From Chloroflexota bacterium (GTDB lineage: Bacteria; Chloroflexota; Anaerolineae; Anaerolineales; VGOW01): 33,125 nt of DNA. Each line of letters begins with the position of its first letter. The stretch's first letter is position 1. The position numbers and the translations under genes were made by a program. Shown here piece after piece: positions 4,046-32,958 of the stretch. The notes beneath the pieces were generated by a model. That model was given only the letters and a program-made list of their open reading frames with translations. It did no database searches and was not told the origin of the DNA. The stretch is from the NCBI GenBank assembly GCA_016197225.1, contig JACPWC010000075.1, positions 1 through 33,125 of the forward strand. Direction: 5' to 3'.

Positions 4046-4222
4046 GTAACTACTCAGACCAGTCTTTCAGAACGCAGATAAACGCTGATACAACGCAGAT
4101 TTTCGCTGATCTCTTTTTGTTTGTATCCGCGATTTCCCGCAGACGCGAAGCGCGCAGATATTTTGAAAAAAAAATCAGCGAAGATCAGCGCGCAAAGCGT
4201 CCGCGTTCATCAGCGTTCTAAT
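4046..4222. repeat. Long imperfect inverted-repeat element (AACGCAGATAAACGCTGAT family), copy 1
   Basis: The left arm is built from variants of AACGC(A/T)GAT and TTTCGC(A/T)GAT. The right arm (about 4160-4222) is its imperfect inverse, with ATCAGCG repeats. A 65-base part (4046-4110) recurs at 32894-32958 with five mismatches. The right arm runs into the 3' end of hutH and supplies its last residues and stop codon. This looks like a non-autonomous, MITE-like or REP-like repeat. No transposase is present. Confidence 0.7.
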
Positions 4223-20004: not shown

Positions 20005-20096
20005 CGGGAACGGATGGGAGTCGAACCCACCCCGGACCTGACCGGCCCGACAACGGTTTTGAAGACCGCGGACGCCACCGGACGCCAACCGCTCCC
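20005..20096 (-). tRNA. selC: tRNA-Sec (anticodon TCA)
   Basis: The 92-base minus-strand gene begins GGGAGCGG and ends CCGTTCCC followed by discriminator G, giving the eight-base-pair acceptor stem special to selenocysteine tRNA (with one G-U pair). The anticodon loop CTTCAAA has TCA at 20062-20060. A long variable arm follows, then the T-arm with GGTTCGACTCC. CCA is not encoded. Its presence implies that the organism reads some UGA codons as selenocysteine. No selA, selB or selD gene is in the window. Confidence 0.92.
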
Positions 20097-20208: not shown

Positions 20209-20281
20209 GCCGAGATAGCTCAGTTGGTAGAGCAATGCACTGAAAATGCATGGGTCCTCAGTTCAAGTCTGAGTCTCGGCA
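20209..20281 (+). tRNA. tRNA-Phe (anticodon GAA)
   Basis: A 73-base cloverleaf. The acceptor GCCGAGA pairs with TCTCGGC, the D-arm is GCTCAGTTGGTAGAGC, the anticodon stem ATGCA/TGCAT encloses CTGAAAA (GAA), and the T-arm has GTTCAAGTC. Discriminator A. CCA is not encoded. Confidence 0.95.
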
Positions 20282-20316: not shown

Positions 20317-20389
20317 GCGGGCTTAGTTCAGTTGGTAGAACACCTCCTTGCCAAGGAGAAGGTCGTGGGTTCGAGTCCCATAGCCCGCT
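20317..20389 (+). tRNA. tRNA-Gly (anticodon GCC)
   Basis: A 73-base cloverleaf. The acceptor GCGGGCT pairs with AGCCCGC, the anticodon stem CTCCT/AGGAG encloses TTGCCAA, and the T-arm has GTTCGAGTC. Discriminator T, as usual for bacterial glycine tRNA. CCA is not encoded. Confidence 0.95.
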
Positions 20390-20471: not shown

Positions 20472-20543
20472 GGCGACGTCGCCAAGTGGTAAGGCAAGGG
20501 TCTGCAAAACCCTCATTCGGCGGTTCAAATCCGCCCGTCGCCT
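20472..20543 (+). tRNA. tRNA-Cys (anticodon GCA)
   Basis: A 72-base cloverleaf. The acceptor GGCGACG pairs with CGTCGCC, the anticodon stem AGGGT/ACCCT encloses CTGCAAA (GCA), and the T-arm has GTTCAAATC. Discriminator T is the cysteine identity base. CCA is not encoded. Confidence 0.95.
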
Positions 20544-20696: not shown

Positions 20697-20882
20697 ATGT
20701 CAGACTTCATCAATCGCGAACGCGAGATCGCCGGACTCAACCAAATCGCCGCCGGGCCAGACTCCCAATTTGTCATGGTGTATGGCCGGCGATACTTGAG
20801 GGCATATTGCGCTTGCCGGACTTCGAGAGAAAAGGGGGAAACTTGGCCCAACCTTCACCTACTACCTTCATCGCCACATTAG
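20697..20882 (+). pseudogene. Remnant of an AAA ATPase gene (N-terminus only)
   Basis: The first about 32 residues (MSDFINREREIAGLNQIAAG and QFVMVYGRR) match the start of archaeal-type AAA ATPases, where GRRRVGKT (the Walker A loop) normally follows. Here the match stops at GRR, just before the nucleotide-binding loop, and the rest is unrelated. The ATG lies seven bases after a perfect TATAAT box (20684-20689), which may still drive transcription of the downstream CRISPR genes. The break near 20790 looks like a deletion that joined this promoter and start to the CARF-LuxR gene region. The frame overlaps that gene's start. Confidence 0.6.
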
Positions 20883-21706
20883 GGAGCGAGGCTCAGGTCG
20901 TCACGCTGTCACTTGACCTGCTCTTGAACAAAGATGAGCCAATCACTCACGTCGTCGTGCTTCACACCGCTGCCCCGGACGGGCCAATTCAGTGGGCGCT
21001 GGACCGGTTACGAACAGAATTTGCGTCTGGCTACTATCCGCCTGCCCTGAAGTTCGCAACTGTTGAATTGCGAACCTATCTTGGGCCGCTGACTGATGTC
21101 GACTCGGCAGAGGGGGCCGAAGCCGCCTTTACTGCCATCTATCGCGCCGTCCGAGCAGAGAAACTGGCCGGGCGGCGCGTTCATTTCTCGCTGGCGGGTG
21201 GGCGAAAGACCATGTCGGTGTTTGGCATGGCGGTGGCCCAGATGCTGTTCGACGAAGGGGACAAGTTGTGGCACCTGGTCTCCTACGGCAAGTTGCTGGA
21301 AGAGAAGCGGATGCACGCCGGGCCGGGCGAAGTGCCAACCCTGGTAGAAATCCCGGTGATCCTCTGGAGCGCCGTCTCGCCGGTGCTGACCGACCTGAGC
21401 GAAATTGACGATCCGTTTGCGGCGGTTGAGCGCCAGCGCGGTCTGCGCTTGCAAGAGTCGCTGGAGTTAGCCCGGACATTTGTGCTGGGGTCGCTGTCAC
21501 CCGCCCAACGGCCTGTGGTGGAACTGCTGGTTCGGGAGGGATTGAGTGATATTGAAATTGCCGAGCGGTTGTCGCTCTCAGCGCGCACGGTGGAACACCA
21601 TTTGAGGGATGTTTATATGCTGGCCCGTGCTCGCTGGGGGTTGCCAAGTGTGAATCGGACACAATTGGTGGCATTGCTTCATTTGTACTATGCCCTCAAA
21701 CCATGA
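20843..21706 (+). CDS. NE0113-type CARF protein fused to a LuxR-type HTH domain
   Basis: A 287-residue protein with two parts. Residues 1 to about 205 match the CRISPR-associated NE0113 family: TTFIATLGSEAQVVTLSLDL, VVVLHTAAPDG, RRVHFSLAGGRKTMSVFGMA (GGRKTM at 119-124) and QMLFDEGDKLWHLVSYG. NE0113 proteins belong to the CARF-type group linked to cyclic oligoadenylate sensing or cleavage. Residues 218-287 form a LuxR/FixJ-type DNA-binding domain: LSPAQRPVVELLVREGLSDI, EIAERLSLSARTVEHHLRDV. It probably changes transcription when the signal molecule is present. I start at TTG 20843 because GGGGGA lies five bases upstream. TTG 20807 would add 12 residues. The gene precedes cas10 on the same strand. 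Confidence 0.82.
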   Translation: MAQPSPTTFIATLGSEAQVVTLSLDLLLNKDEPITHVVVLHTAAPDGPIQWALDRLRTEFASGYYPPALKFATVELRTYLGPLTDVDSAEGAEAAFTAIYRAVRAEKLAGRRVHFSLAGGRKTMSVFGMAVAQMLFDEGDKLWHLVSYGKLLEEKRMHAGPGEVPTLVEIPVILWSAVSPVLTDLSEIDDPFAAVERQRGLRLQESLELARTFVLGSLSPAQRPVVELLVREGLSDIEIAERLSLSARTVEHHLRDVYMLARARWGLPSVNRTQLVALLHLYYALKP

Positions 21707-21820
21707 TTCAGTACAAATGTCTATGACTTGGCGACGCCCGCCTATTCCCTTTAGGGCAGAAAAAGGGTATCTTGTTCAACGTGTTGTTCGAAATTGGGGG
21801 AAAGTACGCATGACAAGAGG

Positions 21821-21844
21821 TGCGTCACCCATTACACTGACGCA
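21821..21844. promoter_or_regulatory. Palindrome upstream of cas10, candidate operator
   Basis: TGCGTCA (21821-21827) and TGACGCA (21838-21844) form a perfect seven-base dyad with a ten-base spacer. It ends 26 bases before the cas10 ATG. LuxR-type domains bind two-fold dyads of about this size. The neighbouring CARF-LuxR protein is the natural candidate to bind it. Binding is inferred. An RNA hairpin in the cas10 leader is the alternative. Confidence 0.5.
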
Positions 21845-21870
21845 AGTACCGGTAAAACCAAGGAGGCTAA

Positions 21871-24210
21871 ATGGATGAAAAGGTGTTGAGTGCGGCGTTG
21901 GCGGGGTTGTTGCATGATATTGGCAAGTTTAGCCAGAGAGCAGGCGTGGGAATAAGTGAGACCGGGAACGCTGAGGCAAGACGGGACTATGGCTATGTTC
22001 ATGCGCTGGCTTCGTATGATTTCATGACGGCTTTTGTGCCTAAAGATTGGCGAGAAGATTTGAGCGGCATTGCTTATCATCACCGCCCTCGCAATCAGCG
22101 TGAGGTCTGGATTCAATTGGCCGATCATCTTTCAGCAAGCGAACGTGAAGAAGATGAGGACAATCGCATCCCTCGAATGCAATCCGTCTTTAGTCAATTA
22201 GCCGCCTATAATGGCCCGGTTCAGTATTTGCCACTCAAGCGATTGAATCCTGAGCATCGCGACAGTCTTTTTCCACAAGCAATAGACGACAATAATTGGA
22301 AGGCGGTTTCTGCGAAAGAATACGCCGACCTATGGCAGGAATTTGACGGGGAATGCAAGAAACGCAGCCTGATTGCTATTGCTGATCGGGCGGCATATCT
22401 CGAAACCGTGTTCGCGCTTCTGCAGGAATTCACCTGGTGTGTGCCGTCCGCGTATTGGAAAAGCAAGCCTGATGTGTCGCTGTTTGACCATCTGCGGACG
22501 ACGGCGGCGATTGCGGCGTGTTTAGCCGCCGACGATCAGAGCATTGACTGGTGTAAAAACGCAAAGCAATCACAAGAACCGATATGTTATCTGGTTGGCG
22601 GCGATTTGTCGGGGTTGCAGGCTTTTATCTATACGCTGGCATCAAACGGCGCGGCCAAGTCGTTGCGGGCACGCTCGTTCTACGTGCAGTTAATCTCGGA
22701 AGCGATGGCGATGGCGATGTTGCGCGAACTTGATTTGCCGTTGACAAATTTGCTGTACGTGGGCGGCGGCGGTTTCCAGTTGTTCGCGCCCATGAAAGCC
22801 AAAGAGCAATTGCCCAATATTGTCCGCGATTTAGTGGACCGCTTGTTGGAAGCGCATCAGGGTGGGCTAGGATTGACGGTTAAGTGGCGGCCATTGGCCT
22901 ATAGCGATTTTGAAGATTTCGGCAAAGCACGAGACGGGTTGGGAAAGAAAATCAATCAAGCCAAGCGCCAACCATTTGCGGCGGCCTCGCCCGAAAAATT
23001 GATGACTGCTCTAGGCGAGCCTATGAGCGAAGGTGGTGACCCGCTCCGGTTTTGCAAAGTGACGGGTGAAGACGGCAACACGGTAAAGAAAGACAAGGAC
23101 GGCGAGTATAAATCCAAGTTTGTCTTGTCGTTGGAAGATTTGGGGAAGCTACTGCCCGGGGCCTCGCACATTGCTTTCGCGCCTGTTCCCAGACAAGCGC
23201 CAACCCGTGCTACGGACTGGCAACAAGCCTTGAGAGTATTTGGAATGGAAGCGCAAGTTGTAGTGAGATCGGATGTGGCGCAAAGAATGTCGGTGGACAG
23301 CGGCGAATTTGTGCGGGTGTGGCGGCTGGATGCTACTCCAGAGCCGGAAGAGCGCGAGTGGTTGAAGCCGCTCGGCCCGGCGCAAGTCATCAGTTATCGC
23401 CCATTTGCGCGGCTGACACCGCTGGATACGGACGGCAACCCGCTGACCTTTGACGAATTGGCCCAGCCAAAGAATGGCGGATTCGAGCGTTGGGGCGTAT
23501 TGCGGTTGGACGTGGACAACTTGGGCAATCTGTTCAAATCGGGTTTTGGCGACAAGGCCAGCCTGTCGTTTGCTATCCGGCTGTTCTTTGAAGGTTGGTT
23601 ACCTCAATTGGCCGGACGGGATTTGAAGCAGTATCTCTACATTCAATACTCTGGCGGGGATGATGTGTTTGTGGTGGGCGCATGGGATGTTTTGCCGGAG
23701 TTTGCGCGACGCATTCGCCAGTCGTTTGGCGAGTATGCGGCGGGCAACCCGCACCTGACGCTCTCTGGCGGAATGACGATGGTGGATGCAGGCTATCCGT
23801 TGTATCAGGCGGCGCAACAGGCGGGCGACGCTGAAGACGCGGCCAAAAGCGTAGACGGCAAAGATGCTTTCACATTTTTGGATCATCCGCTGAAGTGGAG
23901 CGAACTGCAAGCGACGCAGGAACGCGCCTACCGTTTGATGGACAACATTAAAGCTAAACATCTGCCTCACTCCGCTCTGCAAACATTATTGGCTCTGCAA
24001 GCGCGCAAAAATGGAAAACCCAAACCCATGTACGGCCCGTGGATGTGGATGGCGGCGTATCAACTCACCCGCTTGACACAACAGATTAAGGACAATGACA
24101 CCAGGGAACATATCCGGGAATTGCAACAGAAATATTTGTCTCCTGGCGCAGACATCGAAACCATCGGGCTGGCCGCTCGCTGGGCACAATATCTTACACG
24201 AGGAGGATAA
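21871..24210 (+). CDS. cas10: Type III-A CRISPR Cas10/Csm1
   Basis: A 779-residue large subunit of the Csm complex. The N-terminal HD nuclease motif is H15-D16 in LAGLLHDIGKFSQRAG, with YGYVHALASYDF and IAYHHRP following. The first palm-like region contains GGDLSGLQAFIYTLAS and SFYVQLISEA. The second palm has YIQYSGGDDVFVVGAWD with GGDD at 595-598, the cyclic oligoadenylate synthase site, plus LTLSGGMTMVDAGYPL. Both activities therefore appear intact. The usual zinc-finger cysteine pairs are not visible: C395 in FCKVTGED lacks its partners. AAGGAGG precedes the ATG. It leads the csm operon and signals to the CARF proteins downstream. Confidence 0.95.
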   Translation: MDEKVLSAALAGLLHDIGKFSQRAGVGISETGNAEARRDYGYVHALASYDFMTAFVPKDWREDLSGIAYHHRPRNQREVWIQLADHLSASEREEDEDNRIPRMQSVFSQLAAYNGPVQYLPLKRLNPEHRDSLFPQAIDDNNWKAVSAKEYADLWQEFDGECKKRSLIAIADRAAYLETVFALLQEFTWCVPSAYWKSKPDVSLFDHLRTTAAIAACLAADDQSIDWCKNAKQSQEPICYLVGGDLSGLQAFIYTLASNGAAKSLRARSFYVQLISEAMAMAMLRELDLPLTNLLYVGGGGFQLFAPMKAKEQLPNIVRDLVDRLLEAHQGGLGLTVKWRPLAYSDFEDFGKARDGLGKKINQAKRQPFAAASPEKLMTALGEPMSEGGDPLRFCKVTGEDGNTVKKDKDGEYKSKFVLSLEDLGKLLPGASHIAFAPVPRQAPTRATDWQQALRVFGMEAQVVVRSDVAQRMSVDSGEFVRVWRLDATPEPEEREWLKPLGPAQVISYRPFARLTPLDTDGNPLTFDELAQPKNGGFERWGVLRLDVDNLGNLFKSGFGDKASLSFAIRLFFEGWLPQLAGRDLKQYLYIQYSGGDDVFVVGAWDVLPEFARRIRQSFGEYAAGNPHLTLSGGMTMVDAGYPLYQAAQQAGDAEDAAKSVDGKDAFTFLDHPLKWSELQATQERAYRLMDNIKAKHLPHSALQTLLALQARKNGKPKPMYGPWMWMAAYQLTRLTQQIKDNDTREHIRELQQKYLSPGADIETIGLAARWAQYLTRGG

Positions 24211-24213
24211 GCG

Positions 24214-24684
24214 ATGACACAATACAACAGAGGAAGCCAGAGGGGCGGCAACAATCCGCCTGCGCCTCAATTTCAAAAACCGAGTGACGATGAAATCAAA
24301 AAAATCATCGTCAACGGCGACGTAGAGTTATTGGTGAAGTTGGCTGAACGGGCGGGCGAGGCGTTGGCTGTTCAAAAACTCACTACCAGCCAGATACGCA
24401 ATGTGTTTGGCACAGTGCGTCAGATCCAAATGCGCTGGCCGACAGCCCCGGAAAAATCTTATCGGGAAGCAGTCTTGTTGCGCCCCAAGCTGGCTTATTT
24501 CGCCGAACGCGAAAAGAAGTCGAAGGGGGGCGGCTCGGCGGGCATGGAAACACTGCAGGTGGTATTGGAGCCTGCGCTGAAGTTGTTGAGCGACACCGGC
24601 CAGCCCAACCAAGAGCGATTTGAGCGGTTCGCAGAATTGTTTGAAGCCATTGTAGCGTATCACAAGAAGCACGGCGGCAAGTAA
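24214..24684 (+). CDS. csm2: Csm2, small subunit of the type III-A complex
   Basis: A 156-residue helical protein. A disordered Gly/Asn/Pro-rich N-terminus (about 25 residues) precedes the conserved LTTSQIRNVFGTVRQIQMRW, LLRPKLAYFAEREKK and a C-terminal FERFAELFEAIVAYHKKHGG. Csm2 copies line the groove of the complex and help hold the target RNA. The start lies three bases after the cas10 stop. GAGGAGG precedes the ATG and overlaps the end of cas10, which implies coupled translation. Confidence 0.9.
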   Translation: MTQYNRGSQRGGNNPPAPQFQKPSDDEIKKIIVNGDVELLVKLAERAGEALAVQKLTTSQIRNVFGTVRQIQMRWPTAPEKSYREAVLLRPKLAYFAEREKKSKGGGSAGMETLQVVLEPALKLLSDTGQPNQERFERFAELFEAIVAYHKKHGGK

Positions 24685-24702: not shown

Positions 24703-25536
24703 ATGACTGTAAAACTGTTAGGCCGGGTGATTATCAGCGGCGAGATTGAAGCCAAAACCGGTTTGCACATCGGCGGCAGCCCCGGTGCGTTAGCGATTGG
24801 CAACGTGGATTTGCCCGTCATCCGCGACGCTCGCACCAACCAGCCCTACATCCCGGGCTCATCACTTAAGGGCAAGATGCGCTCGTTGAGCGAGAAGCTG
24901 ACTGGCGCGCCACAGAACAAAAACATCGGGAAAGATGTGGCCATACATGTTGCAGGCGGCGATAAGCGCGACTACAAATCTGAGGCAGACTATAAGCGTG
25001 TTGGGATGGAACAATATCAGAGTTATTGGGTCAACCCCATCTTCGGCCTGCCTGGCGAAGTCGGGTTTGATATTCCAGCCCCAAATCGTTTGCTGGTGCG
25101 TGATGTCCCTTTGACCAAATCATCGCGTGATGAACTTCTCAAAGCCAAAACCGATCTCCCCTTCACCGAAGTGAAATGGGAGGCGGCTATTGACCGGGTG
25201 ACGAGCGCGGCGACGCCGAGACAGATTGAGCGTGTTCCGGCGGGCGCGATCTTCGGGCCGATGGAGTTGGTGTTCAGCGCATTCCTCAAAGAGGATGCTG
25301 CCCTGTTCGGTAATGTGCTGAGGGGGTTGCAATTGGTAGAAGATGACTACCTGGGCGGGCATGGCTCGCGCGGCAGCGGCAAGGTGGCGTTCCGCGCTTT
25401 GCGTGTGGAAATCCGGCGCGGCGAGACATATGAAACCGTGACCGACGCGCGTTTCAGCGGCCTGGCCCTGACCGAGCTAATAAGCAGGCAAGCTGAACTG
25501 CTCAACTGGGTGACAGACATGCTGGCCTTGGCGTAG
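24703..25536 (+). CDS. csm3: Csm3, backbone RAMP subunit and target-RNA nuclease
   Basis: A 277-residue RAMP protein. The start VIISGEIEAKTGLHIGGSPG leads to NVDLPVIRDARTNQPYIPGS. Asp36 matches the catalytic aspartate that cuts target RNA every six bases in Csm3. SSLKGKMRSLSEKL is the family signature, and LVEDDYLGGHGSRGSGKVAF is the glycine-rich RAMP loop. Several copies should form the filament backbone. AAGGAGAG precedes the ATG. The active site looks intact. Confidence 0.93.
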   Translation: MTVKLLGRVIISGEIEAKTGLHIGGSPGALAIGNVDLPVIRDARTNQPYIPGSSLKGKMRSLSEKLTGAPQNKNIGKDVAIHVAGGDKRDYKSEADYKRVGMEQYQSYWVNPIFGLPGEVGFDIPAPNRLLVRDVPLTKSSRDELLKAKTDLPFTEVKWEAAIDRVTSAATPRQIERVPAGAIFGPMELVFSAFLKEDAALFGNVLRGLQLVEDDYLGGHGSRGSGKVAFRALRVEIRRGETYETVTDARFSGLALTELISRQAELLNWVTDMLALA

Positions 25537-25544
25537 GAGGCCGT

Positions 25545-26331
25545 ATGCCAATCTTTCATTTGACTCTGCGCGGCCCACTGCATCAGGGCGAGTTTGTGGG
25601 CATCAACCGCGAGGCCGCGCTGGACTGGATTCCATCCGATAGCTTGTTTGCGATGCTGGTAACAGCGTGGACGCAAACGGGAGTTGACATGGCCAGCCGT
25701 TTAGCCGGATTCGAGGCCGGGCCGCCGCCGTTTCTCCTCACTTCGGCGTTTCCGCACGCGGGCAGTGTGCGCTTTTATCCCGCGCCGCAACGCCTGCCGC
25801 AGGCTGTGTTGGACAGCGGTGTAGCCGGAAAGACCGTCAAGAAGATTCGCTGGCTGTCGGCAGGCGCGCTGGATTTGCTACGGCAAGGGCAGGCTCTGGA
25901 AACCGCCGAGGCAAATTTTCTGCATGGGCGAACAGTCTGGTTGACTGTGAAAGAACGAGAAGCAATAAAACATTTGCTAGCCGAAGATGACGAAGGCGGT
26001 TCAAGCCTGTGGCGGTTCCAGGTCGTGCCGCACGTGACGGTGGATCGCGCCAGCAATGCTTCGAACCTGTTTCACACCGGGCGGGTGACTTTCAGCCCGG
26101 ACTGCGGATTATGGTTTGCCGTACGCGGGCAAGCCAATGATGTGCGCGAGGCGTTTGGTTTAAAAGCAAATTTACCCAATATGACCCTTCTTAATTTTAA
26201 TTAATTTCATATAATCCATTATTTCATTTTAAATCGAATATGAATCAAATATACCTATACGTAAGCGGCCAGTTTATCGCAGTGGGTTGGCCTTTCTCAC
26301 TCCGGCAGGGAAATTGGTGGAGGCGGTATGA
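25545..26331 (+). pseudogene. csm4: Csm4 gene disrupted by deletion with an AT-rich patch
   Basis: Csm4 caps the 5' end of the crRNA and binds Cas10. The first frame (219 residues, stop at 26202-26204) shows a proper Csm4 start (FHLTLRGPLHQGEFVGINRE, IPSDSLFAMLVTAW) and SNASNLFHTGRVTFSPDCGL. After about VREAFGL it runs into a very AT-rich stretch (about 26160-26262) and stops. A different frame then gives RKRPVYRSGLAFLTPAGKL, the usual Csm4 C-terminus, ending in TGA at 26329-26331, which overlaps the csm5 start (ATGA). About 100 residues that carry the glycine-rich loop seem to be missing. The gene is likely non-functional, or the assembly is wrong here. Confidence 0.75.
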
Positions 26332-27899
26332 AATACAAGGTAACAGTGGAGACTCTCACCCCTCTGCACATTGGCACAGGCACGGACCTGCTGGCAAAGT
26401 TCGATTACGTCTCCAGGCCCAGCGACCGGATGACGTATGTGCTTGATCAGGAGGCGGTGTACGCCGATGAGTTGGAACGCAACGGGGCGACAGCGCAGTT
26501 GAACAAACCGGCCGGGGCGTTGCTGAGTTCGGAGAACTGGCGTGAAGGCTCGCCGTTTGTGCGCTACACTCTGCACGGCAGTACGACGATTGAGCGTGTG
26601 CACGAACAAATAAAGGATGCTCACGGACGATGCTATTTGCCCGGCTCGTCTCTGAAAGGAGCATTACGCACGGCGATCATGGCGTATGCGATCCGGTCGG
26701 GAGAATTCAAACCACAAGGAGAGCAGTTGGGGCCGCGCTCGGAATGGGCGGCACAGCAATGGGAGCATGACGCTTTTGGGCGCAATTCTAACTATGATCT
26801 ATTACGCGCCTTGCAGGTTGCCGATAGCGGCGCTCTGCCTACTACGCCTTCAGCGTTGGAGTTGTGCTCAGCGCGAGTGTTCACCGGCGGCGAGCCAAGC
26901 ATACCAGTAGAAGTGGAAGCAGTGCGAAAAGGCACGACTTTTCAAACCGAGATTACGATTGACGAGCTAGCATTGAAGTATGCGCCCGAGCTGGATTGGG
27001 AAGATCGGCAATTGTGGTTGACGAATTTGATCGAGATACTTCAGCAGACCAGCCGCCAACGGATTGAGGAAGAATTGGCGACCACCAGCGCCAAAGGTTT
27101 TGAAGAGGCGGCAATTTTTTATAAGCGACTGATGGCGACGGCTGAGGCGCTGAAAGGAAAGAGCGCGGCAGTGATTCAACTGGGATGGGGAGCGGGTTGG
27201 ACCGGGATGACGGTAGGCGGGGTGTTAACCAAAGAATTGCAGGATCGCGCCCGACAAAAATACAAATTAGGGAAGCCGCAAAAAGCAGGGCGGGACTGGG
27301 AGCCGGATTTGAGCAAATCGTTTCCCAAAAGCCGCAGCTTGCGGGCAATTCCATCCTCGGTGGGCGACGACCGGCCCGGCCTGCCATTGGGCTGGATGCT
27401 CCTGGTGTTTGCGCCAGCGGGCCAGCCTTCGCCAGAGTGGGTCGCATTGAGCCGCAAGGCTAAAGCGGCGTTCAAGCCGCTGGCCGATCAGTCTGTTGCG
27501 ATCAAGCAATCGCTTGTGCCGCCAACAGTAGAGCCAGCACCTTCGCCGGTTGAACCGACCCCGGACTCGATCTCGACAAAACCCGCCCTGCCTGTTCGGC
27601 CCGAACCGCCGAAATCGAAGCCGTCAGTTCCAAAACCCGCCGCCCGCCCCCTCATCCCCACCTTCGCCGAAGTTCCAAAGGTGGGTGACCGCTTCAAGGG
27701 CGAAGTGTTCGACGCTCAAGGGCGCGCGTTGCAATTGTTAATTCCGGGGCTGGATGATACGGTCGCCTATGCCAGCATCGCCGCTGAAGACAACGACTCC
27801 AGCAAGAAGTTCAAGGAGGGCGATTCGGTGGTGTGTGAAGTGATTGGACTGGAGCAAGAAAAGAGTGGATGCTGGCGGGTGAAGTGCCGGAGAGGATGA
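26328..27899 (+). CDS. csm5: Csm5 with a C-terminal S1-like RNA-binding domain
   Basis: A 523-residue protein. Residues 1 to about 395 are Csm5, the RAMP subunit at the 3' end of the crRNA: VETLTPLHIGTGTDLLAKFD, CYLPGSSLKGALRTAIMAYA and AVIQLGWGAGWTGMTVGGVL. A Pro-rich linker (residues about 398-450) follows, then an OB/S1-like domain from residue 451: KVGDRFKGEVF, LLIPGLDDTVAYASIAAE, FKEGDSVVCEVIGLE. Csm5 proteins are usually about 350-400 residues without this domain. The extra domain may bind the 3' end of the crRNA or recruit host nucleases, which is inference. The ATG overlaps the end of csm4. Confidence 0.87.
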   Translation: MKYKVTVETLTPLHIGTGTDLLAKFDYVSRPSDRMTYVLDQEAVYADELERNGATAQLNKPAGALLSSENWREGSPFVRYTLHGSTTIERVHEQIKDAHGRCYLPGSSLKGALRTAIMAYAIRSGEFKPQGEQLGPRSEWAAQQWEHDAFGRNSNYDLLRALQVADSGALPTTPSALELCSARVFTGGEPSIPVEVEAVRKGTTFQTEITIDELALKYAPELDWEDRQLWLTNLIEILQQTSRQRIEEELATTSAKGFEEAAIFYKRLMATAEALKGKSAAVIQLGWGAGWTGMTVGGVLTKELQDRARQKYKLGKPQKAGRDWEPDLSKSFPKSRSLRAIPSSVGDDRPGLPLGWMLLVFAPAGQPSPEWVALSRKAKAAFKPLADQSVAIKQSLVPPTVEPAPSPVEPTPDSISTKPALPVRPEPPKSKPSVPKPAARPLIPTFAEVPKVGDRFKGEVFDAQGRALQLLIPGLDDTVAYASIAAEDNDSSKKFKEGDSVVCEVIGLEQEKSGCWRVKCRRG

Positions 27900-27917: not shown

Positions 27918-29366
27918 ATGGTTGAAGTTGATCTAAAAGTTCTGACCGAGCAATGGCTGGCGATCCAGGATCGTAATGAACGCAATAGCTTTTATGACGA
28001 GGCCGTATTTCCGGCGATCAAGCAGGTGGTGGTGGCGCGTGAACAGGCCGAATTGCCTGTTCCGTATACGCATTTGATATTACCAGTGGGCTTATCACCC
28101 GAGCCGCTCATTCTCTCTATCCTGATTTTGCGACCGGAAAAAGTCTACCTGCTTTACACCCGGGCTTCGGAACGCTATCTGGATCGTATCTTCCAGGAAA
28201 CAGGTTTGCGGCTGAGTCAGGTTGACAAAGATGAAGTGGATGAGACGAACGTCCCGGATATCTACCAGAAGGTCAAAGCAATTTATACGCACTGGGGCAG
28301 GCCGGATCGAATCGCTGTGGATGTCAGCGGCGGCAAAAAATCAATGGTCGGCGGGTGCGCTTTGGCTGGAGCGTTGATTGGAGCGCGGCTCTTTTATATG
28401 GATTCGGATTTTTTGCAGGAGTTCCGCAAACCATCGCCGGGCAGCGAGCGATTAGCCATCCTAAGCAATCCTTATGATGTGTTTGGGGATTTGGAACTTG
28501 AGCGAGCTAAGGCCCTGTTCCATGAGTTGGATTTTGCCGGTGCGAAGCGATTGTTGGGTGAACTCGCGGCGCGTTCATCAACGCCAGAACAATATACTGC
28601 GCGAGCAATGTTGTGCGAGGCTTATGCCGCCTGGGATGACTGGGATATAACATCGGCCCATGAACGGTTATCGCAGGTGATTGGAGCGGTTGAAAAGTTT
28701 GCTCGCCGTGATACAGATACGCCGTTGGCATTTGCTATATCGTCATTGCGTCAACAACTTGATGTGCTGGAGCGGCTTAAACAGGCTCAGGCATTACTGG
28801 CCAAGAGCGAGTCGGAATTGGATGCTTTGCGAACCCCTAAATTCTTTCAGCCAATGCTTGGTTCGTTACGGGCAACGGCACTGCGTCAGGAGCAACGAGG
28901 CAAGCGTGATGTGGCGGCTTTGTTGTGGTACCGAACAATTGAATTTCTAAGCCAGCAACGATTGAGTTCCTATAATCTGCGGAGCGGGCAAATTGATTAC
29001 ACCCAAGTTGCCGGCGGCGCATCGGCTGAATTGCTCGAGCGGTATCAAAAAGCCTTTAAAACCGATGACAAAAAAGGAAAGACCAAGTTGCCGGAGGTCC
29101 TGCCGGATGAAGTGGATTTGACTAAAGGCTACGCCTTTTTGCAGGCTTTGGGCGATGAATTCGCGCAAAAGGTTCATTTTGGCAAAATCCGCAGCAAAGT
29201 GAACGCCCGAAACAAGGGAGTGTTTGCCCACGGCTTTGTGCCTTTATCGCAAACAGATTATGAAGATTTCAAATCATTGGCATTGGATTTGCTCGGAGAA
29301 TTCAGGGCGCTTGCGCACGACTACGCTGATGATTGGAACAACTGTGAGTTTATCGAGGCCTTATGA
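27918..29366 (+). CDS. Cas02710-family CARF-HEPN ribonuclease (Csm6-like effector)
   Basis: A 482-residue protein of the TIGR02710/Cas02710 family. The CARF part has THLILPVGLSPEPLILSILI, VYLLYTRASERYLDRIF and the ligand-site motif VDVSGGKKSMVGGCALAG (S137-K141). A long helical middle region with YTARAMLCEAYAAWDDW follows. The C-terminal HEPN domain keeps the Rx6H ribonuclease motif: R431-NKGVFA-H438. It should be activated by the cyclic oligoadenylate made by Cas10 and cleave RNA. It lies 18 bases after csm5 and overlaps the next gene by four bases (ATGA). Confidence 0.85.
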   Translation: MVEVDLKVLTEQWLAIQDRNERNSFYDEAVFPAIKQVVVAREQAELPVPYTHLILPVGLSPEPLILSILILRPEKVYLLYTRASERYLDRIFQETGLRLSQVDKDEVDETNVPDIYQKVKAIYTHWGRPDRIAVDVSGGKKSMVGGCALAGALIGARLFYMDSDFLQEFRKPSPGSERLAILSNPYDVFGDLELERAKALFHELDFAGAKRLLGELAARSSTPEQYTARAMLCEAYAAWDDWDITSAHERLSQVIGAVEKFARRDTDTPLAFAISSLRQQLDVLERLKQAQALLAKSESELDALRTPKFFQPMLGSLRATALRQEQRGKRDVAALLWYRTIEFLSQQRLSSYNLRSGQIDYTQVAGGASAELLERYQKAFKTDDKKGKTKLPEVLPDEVDLTKGYAFLQALGDEFAQKVHFGKIRSKVNARNKGVFAHGFVPLSQTDYEDFKSLALDLLGEFRALAHDYADDWNNCEFIEAL

Positions 29367-30220
29367 TCCTCCTCTCCCTCGTCGGCGAACAACCCCTGCC
29401 TTCTCTCCTCGTCTCGCGGGCCTTGAAGCCGGCGCGGACGATTCTGCTTTACACCACCACCACCGAGCGCGTGGCCGGCAACCTGGCGATGATGATGGCC
29501 GGGGCGGAGTTGAAACGCGTTGACGCTTACGATTTTGTGGCGGCTCTGGCGCAAATCAGGGCGCTCATGGCGGGCGAAGCGGTGATTAATTTGACGGGCG
29601 GCACCAAGCCGATGGCGCTGGCGGCCTACGAAGCGGCGCGCGCTCATGGGGCGGCTGTGGTGTATTTGGAGAGCGAGAAGAAGCAAAGCCTCCTGTACCG
29701 TTACGCTTTTGCCGGGGGCGAGTCGCCCCGCCTGGTTGATAAGACGATTTTGCCGCCGCTGATTGACATTGACGATTATTTGCGCGTTCACGGACTACGG
29801 GCGCCGGCCGAGCATGGCCCGCAAAACCCGCAGGAGGCCGGGCTGGGCGCCTGGCTGAAGGAGCAGGTGGACGAGTGCCGCCGCAACCTGGTCTTTGAGG
29901 GGTTCGAGCTGGATTTTATTCTGCGGCGCGGGAACCAGGTGGCGATTATGGAAGCGAAGATGGCCTGGAAGGGCAGTCGGGCCGGCATTGATCAGTTGAA
30001 CACGGCCGGCGGGCAGACGTATCTTGGCACGTACACCGGAAAGATTCTGGTGACCAGCCGTCCGCTGGGGGCGCAATTGGCGGCGCTGGCCGAGGCGCGG
30101 CGTATTCGCGCGGTGACGGCCAATGGGCAGGTGGAGCGGCGCACGGGACGGATGATGTTCGATGCGGCCAGCCGCTCGCGCCTGTTGCGCGCGCTGGAGC
30201 AGGTGCTAGGCCCGAAATGA
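29363..30220 (+). CDS. Card1/Can2-like CARF-PD-(D/E)XK nuclease
   Basis: A 285-residue effector. The CARF-type N-terminus has [20 protein letters not shown] and [20 protein letters not shown] (N76-K82, the same GG-x-K-x-M motif as its neighbours). The C-terminal nuclease shows D184 ([10 protein letters not shown]), then E197-x-K199 ([12 protein letters not shown]), the PD-(D/E)XK catalytic triad, followed by [20 protein letters not shown]. Card1/Can2 (DUF1887) enzymes nick DNA and cleave RNA when bound to cyclic tetra-adenylate. This protein is shorter than the about 370 residues usual for Card1. GC content rises sharply from this gene on. Confidence 0.82.
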
Positions 30221-30600
30221 TCCTCCTCAACTTCTCCCACCCCCTCACCCCCGACCAGCTTGAGGCGATTAGCAGGCTGACCGGCCAGACGGTGGAGCGC
30301 GTCATCGCCGCCCCGGCCCAGTTCGACCACCAACAGCCGTTCGAGCAACAGTTGGCGGCGCTGATGGCGCAGATTGAGTTGTCGCCCGACGAATGGCAGA
30401 CGGCCTCCATCGTGGTCAATCCCCCTTCGCTCAATTTCATCACTGCCCTGGTGCTGGCCGAGCTTCACGGGCGCATGGGCTACTTTCCGCCGGTGGCGCG
30501 GTTGAGGCCGGTGAAGGACGCCCTGCCGCCGCGTTACGAGGTGGCCGAGGTGTTGAATTTGCAGTCCGCGCGCGATGCGGCCAGAACGAGGCGATTTTAG
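30217..30600 (+). CDS. csx15: Csx15, putative ring nuclease
   Basis: A 127-residue protein. [40 protein letters not shown] and [20 protein letters not shown] are the Csx15 family signatures. Csx15 belongs to the CARF-like ring nuclease group, proposed to degrade cyclic oligoadenylate and end the response. Overlap with the nuclease gene by four bases (ATGA) places it in the effector operon. Function is by family, and catalytic residues are not firmly established. Confidence 0.83.
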
Positions 30601-30602
30601 CG

Positions 30603-30842
30603 ATGGGCGAGAATTTTTGGGGCGACGTGGATCTGGACGGGGACGCCGACTGGCTGGACGATTGGATCGGCGATTCGGCGATGATGGCGGTTCTGCGCGC
30701 CCGGCGCAAGTTGGAGCGCGGCGAGCCGTTGACCAAAGAGGAAGCCGAACTGCTGGGCGAGCCGTTCGAGGAAGACGAGGCCGAGGAGTGGGAGGCGGGT
30801 GACGAGCGGGATGATTGGGAAGAGGACGACGATGACGATTGA
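30603..30842 (+). CDS. Very acidic 79-residue protein, unknown function
   Basis: I do not recognise this gene. It has 33 Asp/Glu among 79 residues (42 percent) against seven Arg/Lys, and ends in EEDDDDD. The N-terminus has a regular Asp pattern (GDVDLDGDADWLDDWIGD). The middle has one basic helix (AVLRARRKLERG), then acidic helix-like stretches. It starts two bases after Csx15, and its end overlaps the cas6 start by 11 bases, so it is embedded in the CRISPR operon and is likely real. A nucleic-acid mimic or metal or polyamine binder is possible. All of this is inference. Confidence 0.65.
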   Translation: MGENFWGDVDLDGDADWLDDWIGDSAMMAVLRARRKLERGEPLTKEEAELLGEPFEEDEAEEWEAGDERDDWEEDDDDD

Positions 30843-31806
30843 GCCGGAGTTGTTGAGTGTGGTGTTGACGGTGACCCCGGCCCTCACCCCCAACCCCTCC
30901 CCCGTTTTGGAAGAGCGCCAAATCAGGGGAGGGGAGAACGGATATGGCCGGGCGGCGCACGCGGTGCTGCTGGATGCGGTGCGCGAGCACGACCCGGCGC
31001 TGGCCGAGAGCCTTCACGCCGGGTCGGGGTTGAGGCCGTTTACGGTTTCGGATTTGATCGGCTACTCGCCGAAGCGCGGCCCTTCGGCGCGCTCAGGACA
31101 GGGCCCTTCGGCGCGCTCAGGGCAGAGCCTGGAGGCGGGGCGGAAGTATAGCCTGAGGTTCACGGCGATGACGGGGCCGGTGGCGCAGGCGATCCGGTGG
31201 GCGGTGAGCAGTGGACAGTTGGCGGTGGGGAGCGCCATCCGGCTGACGGAGAGCGAGTTCGTCGTCGAGGCGGTGGATTCAGGGTTGCAGGGTTTGAATG
31301 GCGGATCGCAATTGGACGATCCGAAGTCGAAAATTGAAAATTCAAAATCCCGATGGCCGGCGGCGGCCACGTATGAGTCGCTTTCGGCCCCGTGGTTGCT
31401 GGGGCGCGCCCAGCCAGGGCATCGCCTGGCCCTTCAGTTTGCCAGTCCCACCACCTTCAAGTCGCAGGAGAAGCACGTGCCGGTTCCGCTTCCGGCCTGG
31501 GTCTTCGGCAGTTTGCTGGAGAAATGGAACGCCTTTGCCCCAGTGGCCCTGCCGCCGGAGGCCAGACGTTTTGCCGAGGAATGTCTGGCCCTTTCCGGCT
31601 ACAAGCTGCAGACGCGGCCCGTGCCCACCAAAGAAGGCGGCCTGCGGATGGGGGCGGTGGGCGTTGCCTATTACACGGCTATCAATCGCGACCGTTACTG
31701 GTTGAGCGTGATGAACCTGCTAGCCGACTTTGCCCTCTTCGCCGGAATTGGGGCGGGGACGACGATGGGGTTGGGGCAGTGCCGGAGGTTGGAGGTTGGA
31801 AGTTAG
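30832..31806 (+). CDS. cas6: Cas6 endoribonuclease with several repeat-derived insertions
   Basis: Cas6 cuts the CRISPR transcript within repeats. This 324-residue protein has the Cas6 blocks GRAAHAVLLDAVREHDPALA, LRPFTVSDLIGYS, YSLRFTAMTGPVAQAI, LALQFASPTTFKSQEKHVPV, WVFGSLLEKWNAF, GGLRMGAVGVAYYT and the glycine-rich loop FAGIGAGTTMGLGQCR near the C-terminus. Three low-complexity segments are not part of the family: residues about 15-37 (TPALTPNPSPVLEE...), 83-98 (GPSARSGQ twice) and about 163-173 (DPKSKIENSKS). Each matches a DNA repeat. ATG 30832 has GGAAGAGG upstream and overlaps the acidic gene. The C-terminal residues and stop are also encoded by heptamer repeat. Confidence 0.85.
   Translation: MTIEPELLSVVLTVTPALTPNPSPVLEERQIRGGENGYGRAAHAVLLDAVREHDPALAESLHAGSGLRPFTVSDLIGYSPKRGPSARSGQGPSARSGQSLEAGRKYSLRFTAMTGPVAQAIRWAVSSGQLAVGSAIRLTESEFVVEAVDSGLQGLNGGSQLDDPKSKIENSKSRWPAAATYESLSAPWLLGRAQPGHRLALQFASPTTFKSQEKHVPVPLPAWVFGSLLEKWNAFAPVALPPEARRFAEECLALSGYKLQTRPVPTKEGGLRMGAVGVAYYTAINRDRYWLSVMNLLADFALFAGIGAGTTMGLGQCRRLEVGS
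30879..30936. repeat. CCCCTCCCC/GGGGAGGGG repeat inserted in cas6
   Basis: CCCCTCCCCC (30894-30903) and AGGGGAGGGG (30925-30934) form an inverted repeat preceded by CCCTCACCCCCAA. It encodes a Pro-rich, then Arg/Gly-rich segment near the Cas6 N-terminus. Confidence 0.7.
31078..31125. repeat. 24-base tandem repeat in cas6
   Basis: Two adjacent 24-base copies (31078-31101 and 31102-31125) differ at one base. Each encodes GPSARSGQ, so the frame is kept. Confidence 0.9.
31321..31351. repeat. Heptamer repeat inserted in cas6
   Basis: AAAATT and CAAAATCC-type units encode KSKIENSKS, interrupting two conserved Cas6 blocks. It is the same repeat class as in moeA and the RT gene. Confidence 0.75.
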
Positions 31807-31852
31807 AGGTTAGAGGTTGGAGGATTAGAGAATTGGAGATTGGGGGTTATGG
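31785..31852. repeat. Heptamer repeat tract between cas6 and the RT
   Basis: Variants of GGTTGGA and GGTTAGA run for about 65 bases. They form the last cas6 codons, its TAG stop, the spacer and the start region of the RT gene. TTGGGGG within it may serve as the RT ribosome binding site. Confidence 0.8.
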
Positions 31853-32886
31853 TTCAACGCACTTTAACAACTGAATATCAGGTTTTGCCGACAATAGATA
31901 AAGTTTTGGAGTGGAAGAATTTGCAGGTTGCCTGGCGGCAGGTGGAGTCTAACAAGGGCGCCCCCGGCGTGGACGAGGTGAGCGTGGCCCGCTGGGGGCG
32001 CAATTGGGAGACGAACCTGCACCGCTTGCGCCAGCAGGTGAAGTCGAACACCTATTGCCCCAGCCGCCCACGCCGTTTTACGGTGCTGAAGAACGACGGC
32101 GGGTTTCGCGAGCTTTCGATTCTGACGGTGACCGACCGGGTTCTGCAGAGGGCAACGCTGAATGCGCTGGAGCCGTTGTTCGAGCGCCGGTTCTTGAATT
32201 GCAGTTTTGGCTACCGGCCCAACCGGTCGGTGGCCCACGCGGTGACGACCGTGGTGCGGCAACGCGAGCGCGGCCAGCGCTGGGTGTTGGACGCCGATAT
32301 TCGCCAGTGCTTCGAGAGTCTGGATCATCAATTGATTATGGAGTTGATGCGGCAGGAGGTGAAGGACGCGGGCCTGCTGAGGTTGAATGCGTTGTGGCTG
32401 GAAACGGGGAAGGCCCAAAACCCCAAAGTCCAAAACCCCAAGACCCAAAATCCCAAACGCCAAATCTCAAGCAGTGATGATGGCGACCATCAGCCCTCAG
32501 CCACGCGAAGCGGCCATCCGCCGCGCGGCGTGCCGCTGGGGGCGGTGCTGTCGCCGCTATGGTGCAACCTGGTTTTGCACGAACTGGACGCGGCGCTGAC
32601 GCGGGCCGGTTGGATTCTGGCCCGCTACGCCGACGATTTTGTGGTGCTGGCCGAAACCGAGGGCCGGGCGCTGACGGCCTGGGAGGAAACCGAGTATGCG
32701 CTGGACGGGCTGGGTTTGCAGTTGAACGAGGCCAAGACGAGGGTAGCCTCCTTTGACGACGGCTTCACCTTTTTGGGGGTGACGTTCAAGGGCGACGAGT
32801 ATTCCTACATCCACGAGCAGAAGCGCATCCGGGTGAAAGGCCCGACGGTGAAAATTTTGCACAGCTACCTGCCGGACTTTTATTAG
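31849..32886 (+). CDS. Group II-intron-like reverse transcriptase, CRISPR-associated
   Basis: A 345-residue reverse transcriptase. Visible blocks are APGVDEVSVARWGRNWE, REL SILTVTDRVLQRATLNAL, FLNCSFGYRPNRSVAHAV, VLDADIRQCFESLDHQLIME (first catalytic Asp), GVPLGAVLSPLWCNLVLHEL, ARYADDFVVLA (YADD at 260-263) and QLNEAKTRV with FTFLGVTF. The fingers and palm are complete. Maturase (X), endonuclease and Cas1 parts are absent, and the protein ends soon after the last palm block, close to a repeat element. Heptamer repeats add about 35 residues (from residue 188) before the GVPLG block. Adjacent to cas6, it resembles the RTs that let type III systems acquire spacers from RNA. No Cas1 is in the window. 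Confidence 0.85.
   Translation: MVQRTLTTEYQVLPTIDKVLEWKNLQVAWRQVESNKGAPGVDEVSVARWGRNWETNLHRLRQQVKSNTYCPSRPRRFTVLKNDGGFRELSILTVTDRVLQRATLNALEPLFERRFLNCSFGYRPNRSVAHAVTTVVRQRERGQRWVLDADIRQCFESLDHQLIMELMRQEVKDAGLLRLNALWLETGKAQNPKVQNPKTQNPKRQISSSDDGDHQPSATRSGHPPRGVPLGAVLSPLWCNLVLHELDAALTRAGWILARYADDFVVLAETEGRALTAWEETEYALDGLGLQLNEAKTRVASFDDGFTFLGVTFKGDEYSYIHEQKRIRVKGPTVKILHSYLPDFY
32408..32472. repeat. Heptamer repeat inserted in frame in the RT gene
   Basis: Nine or so units of CCCAAAA, CCAAAGT or CCAAAAC encode KAQNPKVQNPKTQNPKRQIS, lying between the RT blocks NALWLETG and GVPLGAVLSPL. The frame stays open. Confidence 0.85.
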
Positions 32887-32893
32887 AAACGGC

Positions 32894-32958
32894 GTAACTG
32901 CTCAGGACAGTCTTTCAGAACGCAGATAAACGCTGATACAACGCTGATTTTCGCAGAT
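32894..32958. repeat. AACGCAGATAAACGCTGAT family repeat, copy 2
   Basis: 65 bases match 4046-4110 with five mismatches and in the same orientation. The repeat begins eight bases after the RT stop codon. No right arm like that of copy 1 is seen. Confidence 0.8.

Follow-up and report, generated by a model that had tools for sequence, protein, structure and literature searches.

Csa3 (2wte, 6wxq, 6w11), the only experimentally characterised non-nuclease CARF effector as of 2022 (PMC9704534), shares a CARF sensor and a C-terminal DNA-binding domain (alignments with Z of about 12) with the protein studied here, a CARF–LuxR fusion encoded directly upstream of cas10-csm2-5 in a 33,125-nt stretch of DNA from a Chloroflexota bacterium (contig JACPWC010000075.1, positions 1 to 33,125; hereafter the window). 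In Csa3, cyclic tetra-adenylate (cA4) lies in the CARF pocket, and no ring nuclease activity is reported there for the S. solfataricus protein (PMC8844856). While Csa3 has a winged helix-turn-helix (HTH) domain, often occurs with type I-A systems (PMC9704534), and was studied in proteins from Sulfolobales, the fusion combines a Crn1-like CARF with a LuxR-type HTH and is the first gene in bacterial type III loci. Based on these domains and on a conserved site before the csm operon, we infer DNA binding, ligand, activation, and its direction, and read the fusion as a class-II-type activator that is dedicated to the csm operon and responds to cA4 (probability about 0.52).

Other described systems are related in part. 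RtcR (CARF-AAA+-HTH) is also a CARF-controlled transcription activator (PMC9650030), but of the sigma-54-dependent type and serving an RNA repair operon (PMC4012209). In the CalpL-CalpT-CalpS system, cA4 likewise leads to transcription in type III loci (PMC11229360); it consists of three proteins, a protease, an anti-sigma, and a sigma factor, whereas the fusion is one protein. Predicted transcription factors were deferred to later work by the authors of that system (PMC11229360). The activators LuxR, GerE, NarL, and EL222 share sequence and fold of the HTH, but use an acyl-homoserine-lactone, REC, or LOV sensor in place of CARF. CARF families without effector domains, 'such as Csa3 and NE0113', were predicted to be transcription regulators by Makarova et al. 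2014 (PMC4012209), and the fusion matches PF09623/NE0113 over the cut-off. The PADLOC CARF3 model (PDLC01851) covers it nearly completely (residues 19–297 of a 299-aa version, 2e-92), so that the family is known to PADLOC, though labelled only CARF. The earlier note on this DNA, made from the sequence alone, did not know the combination as described. Regulation by NE0113 proteins was thus already predicted in 2014 and a full-length model exists, while the LuxR-type assignment, the operator, and the promoter geometry were not found in the open-access literature, subscription papers, preprints, and the CARF classification of Makarova et al. 2020 being outside the scope of that search.

Domains of the fusion and its predicted cA4 pocket

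Profile searches matched PF09623 to residues 18–190 of the 287-aa fusion (113.6 bits, cut-off 23) and PF00196 (GerE) to residues 217–258 (27.0 bits, cut-off 23.5), positions being shifted from the 12-residue-longer version used in the search to the 287-aa form. The earlier note had described an NE0113-type CARF with the motif GGRKTM joined to a LuxR-type HTH and had proposed a profile search of both halves; with each half over its Pfam cut-off, the CARF–LuxR fusion is real. The NE0113 equivalog TIGR02584 (29.3 vs. 80.65 bits) and the Csx14 model TIGR03642 (63.1 vs. 90.35 bits) stayed below their curated cut-offs, and the Csa3 model TIGR01884 was not among the 25 NCBIfam families with E-values up to 0.1. 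Sigma models scored similarly to GerE on the same C-terminal stretch (PF07638 28.3 bits, PF08281 26.3 bits), and no N-terminal part of a sigma factor was matched among the listed Pfam matches. A family profile of 57 proteins searched against the PDB returned Sso2081/Crn1 first (1.6e-10), followed by Sis0455, and VpsT, GerE, and NarL for the HTH part (2.1e-7 to 5.5e-7). In the AlphaFold2 model (predicted local distance difference test score, pLDDT, 95.1; predicted template modelling score, pTM, 0.85), the predicted CARF aligned with Sso2081 (7yhl_B; Z 18.1, root-mean-square deviation 1.6 over 147 residues) in a tie with Cad1-CARF (Z 18.7, 2.2 over 161 residues), and the predicted HTH with EL222 (3p7n; Z 12.1, 1.4 over 74 residues). 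The structural alignment rows lay mostly within residues 4–207, and the HTH assignment comes from EL222 and the sequence matches. By profile and structure, the HTH is GerE-type rather than a Csa3-like winged HTH; the closest CARF is that of Crn1/Csx14 (Sso2081, Sis0455) by profile, jointly with Cad1-CARF by fold.

Sso2081 binds cA4 through D75 and R105, and K106 and S11 matter for cleavage (PMC10018336). In a comparison spanning S11, D75, and G104–K106, with Tyr133 and Arg172 outside the alignment, D85, R121, and K122 of the window protein correspond to D75, R105, and K106, and E16 replaces S11. The equivalents of D75, G104, and R105 are kept in 57/57 family proteins and that of K106 is lysine in 45 proteins and arginine in 12, so that the fusion shares with Crn1/Csx14 D75, R105, and most of the motif II GGRK. 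Motif I differs: G-T-S of Crn1 is G-x-E/K/A in the fusion, the third position being glutamate in 38, lysine in 15, alanine in 4, and serine in none of the 57 proteins; the additional HTH is a further difference. Retention of D75 and R105 together with the replacement of S11 suggests that cA4 binding is kept and that cleavage is lost or weak, and the CARF would then bind its ligand as a sensor rather than as a ring nuclease.

It is improbable that the fusion is instead a ring nuclease with a regulatory HTH, in which the CARF degrades cA4 as those of Sso1393 and Sis0811 (CARF and winged HTH) do. Such a function would agree with Crn1 as the best relative by profile, with the kept GGRK/R, and with Sso1393, a known ring nuclease with a C-terminal winged HTH (PMC10018336). 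Ser11 is also not critical in Sis0455 (PMC10018336), so that slow cleavage by the fusion family may occur. The replacement of S11 in all 57 proteins speaks against it, since Ser11Ala reduced Sso2081 activity by about 80% and Can2/Card1, without the GTS motif, do not cleave (PMC10018336). The same replacement speaks against the suggestion of the earlier note that sensing and shut-off might be united in one protein, as the motif-I serine needed for efficient Sso2081 cleavage is E/K/A throughout the family. In a 2025 survey, Csx14 was placed in Crn1 and ring nucleases were limited to 250 aa (PMC12409355); due to this limit, fusions of this size lie outside the ring nuclease class of that survey.

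A conserved putative operator at the predicted csm promoter

For 42 loci in which a csm-type cas10 follows directly, chosen so that no two C-termini are identical, an expectation-maximisation motif finder run on the last 60 nt of the regulator open reading frame (ORF) plus the gap returned TAGGGGAAAaCCCGCATGAC, that is, an 18-bp dyad AtacGGG-aaaa-CCCgcAT (7-4-7) joined to the -35 box. Its log-likelihood was 440.1; five dinucleotide shuffles gave 77.4–84.9, and the non-coding DNA ahead of the regulator gene (38 loci) gave 88.7. Conservation of protein motifs brought the coding controls to equal or higher values (441.7 and 570.2), and thus only the non-coding and shuffle controls are informative. 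With a position weight matrix trained on the same sites that it scores, and with close relatives remaining among the 42 loci, the operator scored at least 18 bits at 34/42 cas10-adjacent positions, and elsewhere in all 42 stretches only once (L090, 19.3 bits). Relative to the end of the regulator ORF, these 34 boxes begin between -38 and +114 nt, 19 of them inside the ORF in two reading frames and 15 outside, so that coding is unlikely as the cause of conservation. Four csm1 loci without the fusion in their 0.5–1.5 kb of upstream DNA had no operator site above 4.7 bits; a further csm1 locus with 156 nt upstream (L235) was left out of this control, and three of the control genomes (G008, G021, G105) have fusion matches elsewhere.

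The promoter geometry was also conserved. TAnnnT was found exactly 17 bp 3' of ATGAC(A/G) in 31/42 loci, whereas each of the remaining spacings between 10 and 25 accounted for 0–3 loci. Since the 20-nt motif includes ATGAC, the fixation of the box to the -35 is partly built in; the distance from the box to the -10 is an independent fact. With the start set 7 nt after the -10, the usual distance, the dyad of this predicted promoter is centred at -42.5 over the -35, the class II position, which we take to be that of the lux box. Class II LuxR-type activators contact RNA polymerase from a site overlapping the -35. On average, 4.48/7 arm positions pair in the csm set, compared to 0.79–2.76 when the dyad is slid by 1–3, and in L144 changed arms pair perfectly (ATAGGAA-TATA-TTCCTAT). 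The csm -10 boxes, often TAnACT, look weak. The fixed place at -42.5 and these boxes favour activation, and we consider it probable from this layout that the fusion activates csm transcription.

Repression is a less probable use of the same site, though one to be taken seriously: a dimer over the -35 would block polymerase and cA4 would release it, so that infection derepresses the csm operon. The overlap of the -35 box with the right operator arm would suit this, as would Csa3b, for which derepression of cas genes on invasion was described with Cascade (PMC10013973). However, loci of several clades keep operator and -10 at an interval that does not differ by a single base pair, which fits activators better, as repressor sites usually vary in position, and the weak look of the -10 boxes also speaks against a repressor. 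Many repressors furthermore autoregulate, and a motif search in the 220 nt preceding the regulator gene (38 loci) did not recover the box. That the regulator controls its own gene through this box was therefore rejected as well: the 88.7 obtained there, compared to 77–85 in shuffles, reflected only a TAtAAT-like consensus, and no operator site of at least 18 bits was found upstream of the regulator in the 42 scanned stretches.

The earlier note had placed the operator elsewhere, at a perfect dyad TGCGTCA-N10-TGACGCA in front of cas10. Letters and place are as it had described them, but perfect 7-bp dyads with a spacer of 0–20 bp occurred in 84/500 dinucleotide shuffles of the 164-nt gap and in 46/201 window tiles of the same size (coding tiles included). 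In 41 other CARF-HTH/cas10 loci, the sequence at the corresponding place pairs on average at 2.17/7 positions (chance about 1.75), and in the same-genus locus L066 at 2/7. This palindrome, whose lack of conservation among fusion-bearing relatives the note itself had named as refuting, was thus ruled out as the operator. The conserved element lies immediately upstream at 21794–21811 and was absent from the note, whose proposal that the fusion is placed to control csm transcription is supported.

Other clades, regulon, and distribution

A further set of 40 loci, mostly of another clade and reduced to 32 after dropping 8 near-duplicates, yielded CATCAGAgatatCTcTGA, a different palindrome with the same arm and spacer lengths (121.9 vs. 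55–63 in shuffles); the motif search over 42 mixed-clade loci was weak (93.5 vs. 57–67). The pattern [CG]ATG-N20-TAnnnT, whose spacing was seen by eye in the same sequences before the count was made, occurred in 33/42 loci of csm type, 14/44 other loci (including three from the csm clade), and 10/32 of the further set, while with any other single spacing between 12 and 29, [CG]ATG and TAnnnT were found in at most 5, 3, and 2 loci, respectively. Thus, in part of the other-clade loci, the promoter-proximal site keeps its distance to the -10 and changes its sequence. An unanchored dyad scan revealed a modest excess for a spacer of 4, with at least 6/7 pairs in 27/44 and 22/42 loci (shuffle maxima 21 and 18).

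Operator and recognition helix were compared in 118 loci, 36 of them without an operator call and 11/82 calls without a helix signature. TVExH/Q went with a GGG/CCC operator in 34/37 calls and TVANQ with GGAA/TTCC or AGTAG/CTACT in 16/17, while TxDSH went with CAGAG/CTCTG in 8/17 and another type in 9/17; these classes were set up once the sequences had been inspected, shared ancestry was retained, and some best matches lay off the promoter. Read in this way, the operator type goes with the recognition-helix signature. Tandem palindromes were seen in promoters of III-B-type and TxDSH-clade loci (L061, L105, L108, L162, L208, L227), in L208 and L227 with the second palindrome at the predicted -42.5 position.

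Regarding further targets, the 21-nt stretch 21794–21814 was a single site within 3 mismatches in the 4.8-Mb genome of the window. A generic 17-nt box, searched with one mismatch allowed, gave 28 sites in 35 genomes, compared to 18 for a reversed control pattern. Nine of the 28 were csm promoters; none of the 8 sites in fusion-free genomes had TAnnnT at the right spacing, and among the 11 other sites in fusion genomes it was found in L189 (TAGGAT) and nearly in L168 (TATAAA), no CRISPR link being found for these two. A wide regulon was therefore rejected, and the regulator is probably dedicated, serving one promoter. A possible second target is L168 (G016:C8:66090-66106) in Bellilinea, where a box that matches the generic csm type perfectly and has the -10-like TATAAA precedes an ORF of 109 aa that is not part of the csm locus. 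In L101 and L107, the fusion gene stands directly before a cas1-looking ORF, and the L101 stretch includes a 25-repeat CRISPR array; adaptation may be under the control of the regulator there as well.

The Bellilinea box before an unrelated ORF could also indicate that the box belongs to another, chromosomal regulator and that the fusion HTH is a dimer or effector module. We regard this as very unlikely, since the box lies directly 3' of the fusion gene and often over its 3' end (19/34 boxes), the palindrome changes with the HTH clade, and the four csm1 loci without the fusion in 0.5–1.5 kb of upstream DNA lack a comparable site.

The fusion was matched in 26/151 genomes (that of the window and 150 relatives), three of which (G021, G117, G143) match in the HTH only, and class-wide in 126/396 genomes (E-values up to 1e-10, some matches partial). 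A scan with one genome per species led to 70 loci, 50 of them in Chloroflexota and 20 in Caldanaerobacter, Peptococcaceae, a Firmicutes metagenome-assembled genome, Latescibacterota, WOR-3, KSB1, Bipolaricaulota, Deltaproteobacteria, and other metagenome-assembled genomes; viral contigs searched revealed no relative. Using marker profiles built partly from loci of the same set, the tie to type III loci, which the earlier note had suggested surveying, held: including the window, 51 of 71 loci had at least 3 kb downstream, and any Cas marker was found in 46/51 and a Cas10-type ORF in 44/51, this assignment resting outside csm loci on GGDD and set-derived profiles. L115, scored as a miss, begins by eye with a Cmr1-like ORF, and 6 of the 20 loci with less than 3 kb downstream had a Cas marker. 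In III-B-type loci, the fusion is followed by a cmr1-like gene and a GGDD ORF. Csm1 was identified in 20/151 genomes with the fusion directly upstream in 15/20 (in G111 as a contig-end fragment), and GGDD was present in 31/31 full-length csm-type cas10 genes.

Proposed control of the csm operon and its genomic setting

We propose that a fusion dimer would bind with its LuxR-type HTHs to the 18-bp dyad 42.5 bp before the predicted csm start, over the -35. As the main cA4 residues are kept and the motif-I serine is lost, the Crn1-like CARF pocket would read the cA4 made by Cas10 without efficiently destroying it. Upon detection of target RNA, cA4 would rise and the CARF dimer close, and the closed dimer would increase transcription of cas10-csm and of the effectors, a positive feedback that would end when other proteins clear cA4.

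Within activation, we hold cA4 as activator to be about three times as probable as cA4 as inhibitor. An activator switched off by cA4, whose apo form sustains Csm for surveillance while cA4 brakes a toxic response, would rest on the same operator evidence, and docking to Csa3 pointed to closure by cA4 as a possible hindrance to DNA binding (PMC8844856). Specific binding by Csa3 was, however, unchanged by cA4 (PMC8844856), and we consider this variant rather unlikely.

Several points weigh against the proposed cA4-responsive activator. In vitro, S. solfataricus Csa3 binds its promoter whether or not cA4 is present (PMC8844856), so that ligand control of DNA binding is not to be assumed. The cA4 preference of the fusion is suggested by analogy to Crn1 and to the Card1-like neighbour, the Cad1 CARF, structurally as close, was according to structure titles also solved with cA6, and K106 is replaced by arginine in 12 family proteins. 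A dyad over the -35 would suit a repressor too. In addition to the self-trained matrix, the remaining close relatives, and the partly built-in -35 spacing, 8/42 loci stay below 18 bits, and the spaced pattern is missing in 30/44 and 22/32 loci of the other two sets. Finally, the dyad of the window itself is weak (3/7 pairs; 2/7 in L066 of the same genus), so that the argument for a dimer depends on the relatives.

A second element was detected in the cas10 leaders, defined as the predicted +1 to cas10. From the 42 loci, five without a clear box (L040, L097, L111, L147, L163) and three with short leaders (the window, L066, L146) were excluded, leaving 34 relatives whose leaders exceed 50 nt. 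In the median, the best stem begins 2.5 nt after the predicted start; its mean z is 2.8, compared to -0.02 to 0.61 in controls, with shuffles keeping base composition only; 16/34 leaders beat all 30 shuffles (controls 1/36, 2/37, and 5/37). GGGG was present in the loop in 28/34 leaders compared to 7/36, 9/37, and 6/37 in controls, a count helped by the G-rich leaders. Stem sequences differ between lineages, with G-tracts in the loop (e.g., L070, L079, L098, L094, L046), and an Rfam search of 16 stretches returned only tRNAs and no match for the stem-loop, which is possibly an RNA-level control of cas10. The short leaders of the window and L066 are without it.

The features of the window are summarised in Table 1; AAGGGGGAAAC stands ahead of the TTG start of the fusion gene.

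Table 1. Fusion gene, predicted csm promoter, and CRISPR genes in the window
Feature	Position	Strand	Remarks
CARF–LuxR fusion gene	20843..21706	+	287 aa from TTG 20843; longer alternative from in-frame TTG 20807
Crn1-like CARF domain	20858..21367	+	residues ~6–175 of the fusion; profile, structure, residue comparison
LuxR/GerE-type four-helix HTH	21449..21694	+	residues ~203–284; VpsT/GerE/NarL by sequence, EL222 by structure
Conserved operator dyad (putative) TTGGGGG-AAAG-TACGCAT	21794..21811	+	predicted centre -42.5; degenerate copy, 3/7 arm positions pair
-35 box ATGACA	21810..21815	+	shares bases with right operator arm
Dyad of the earlier note TGCGTCA-N10-TGACGCA	21821..21844	+	across promoter spacer and -10 box; not conserved
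-10 box TACACT	21833..21838	+	17 bp from -35; predicted +1 near 21845
Ribosome-binding site AAGGAGG of cas10	21860..21866	+	predicted leader only ~26 nt
cas10/csm1 with HDIG and GGDD	21871..24210	+	TIGR02578 578.6 bits; motifs
csm2	24214..24684	+	profile matches
csm3	24703..25536	+	profile matches
csm4	25545..26204	+	profile matches
csm5	26328..27899	+	profile matches
Csm6/Csx1-like CARF-HEPN effector	27918..29366	+	profile matches
Card1/Can2-like CARF-PD-(D/E)xK effector	29363..30220	+	PF23400 33.5 bits; PADLOC CARF4-PDDEXK 6.1e-66
csx15	30217..30600	+	NF040560 172.6 bits
cas6-like gene	30799..31806	+	TIGR01877 40.1 bits, under curated cut-off 58.65

The gene csx15 was found again in related fusion loci, e.g., L047, L050, L053, and L057; in the 2025 survey, its product had no ring nuclease activity in vitro and its function was called open (PMC12409355). 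A reverse transcriptase ORF with YADD (31840–32886), which may have a link to adaptation or belong to the group II intron type, lies 3' of the cas6-like gene, and a relative follows a III-B-type locus in L060. Directly upstream of the CRISPR locus, a tRNA-Sec and three further tRNA genes were located (20006–20096 on the minus strand; 20209–20281, 20317–20389, and 20472–20543 on the plus strand), followed near 20700 by a sequence that by eye resembles the beginning of a truncated ATPase frame; this region is a possible integration hot spot. A 65-nt dispersed repeat is present at 4046–4110 and 32894–32958 (92% identity, 28.8 kb between copies).

Taken further, and only tentatively, bacterial type III CRISPR operons in many lineages might be cA4 positive-feedback loops in which a CARF–LuxR factor arose from a Crn1-like ring nuclease by loss of the cleavage serine, factor and operator co-evolving as a plug-in switch, and most csm operons with long leaders might be subject to a second control, exerted at the RNA level by a stem-loop with G-tracts with which the cas10 mRNA begins. 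Since type III systems can be harmful to the cell that carries them, the amount of Csm and effectors made after the alarm is a central, little-studied question. The fusion would be a candidate answer consisting of one protein, one ligand pocket, and one operator at a textbook position, present in several phyla as a CARF–LuxR factor whose DNA specificity is swapped. It would make the feedback of type III immunity testable, the switch may provide a small promoter module responsive to cyclic oligoadenylate, and the family suggests a route from a ring nuclease fold to a sensor.

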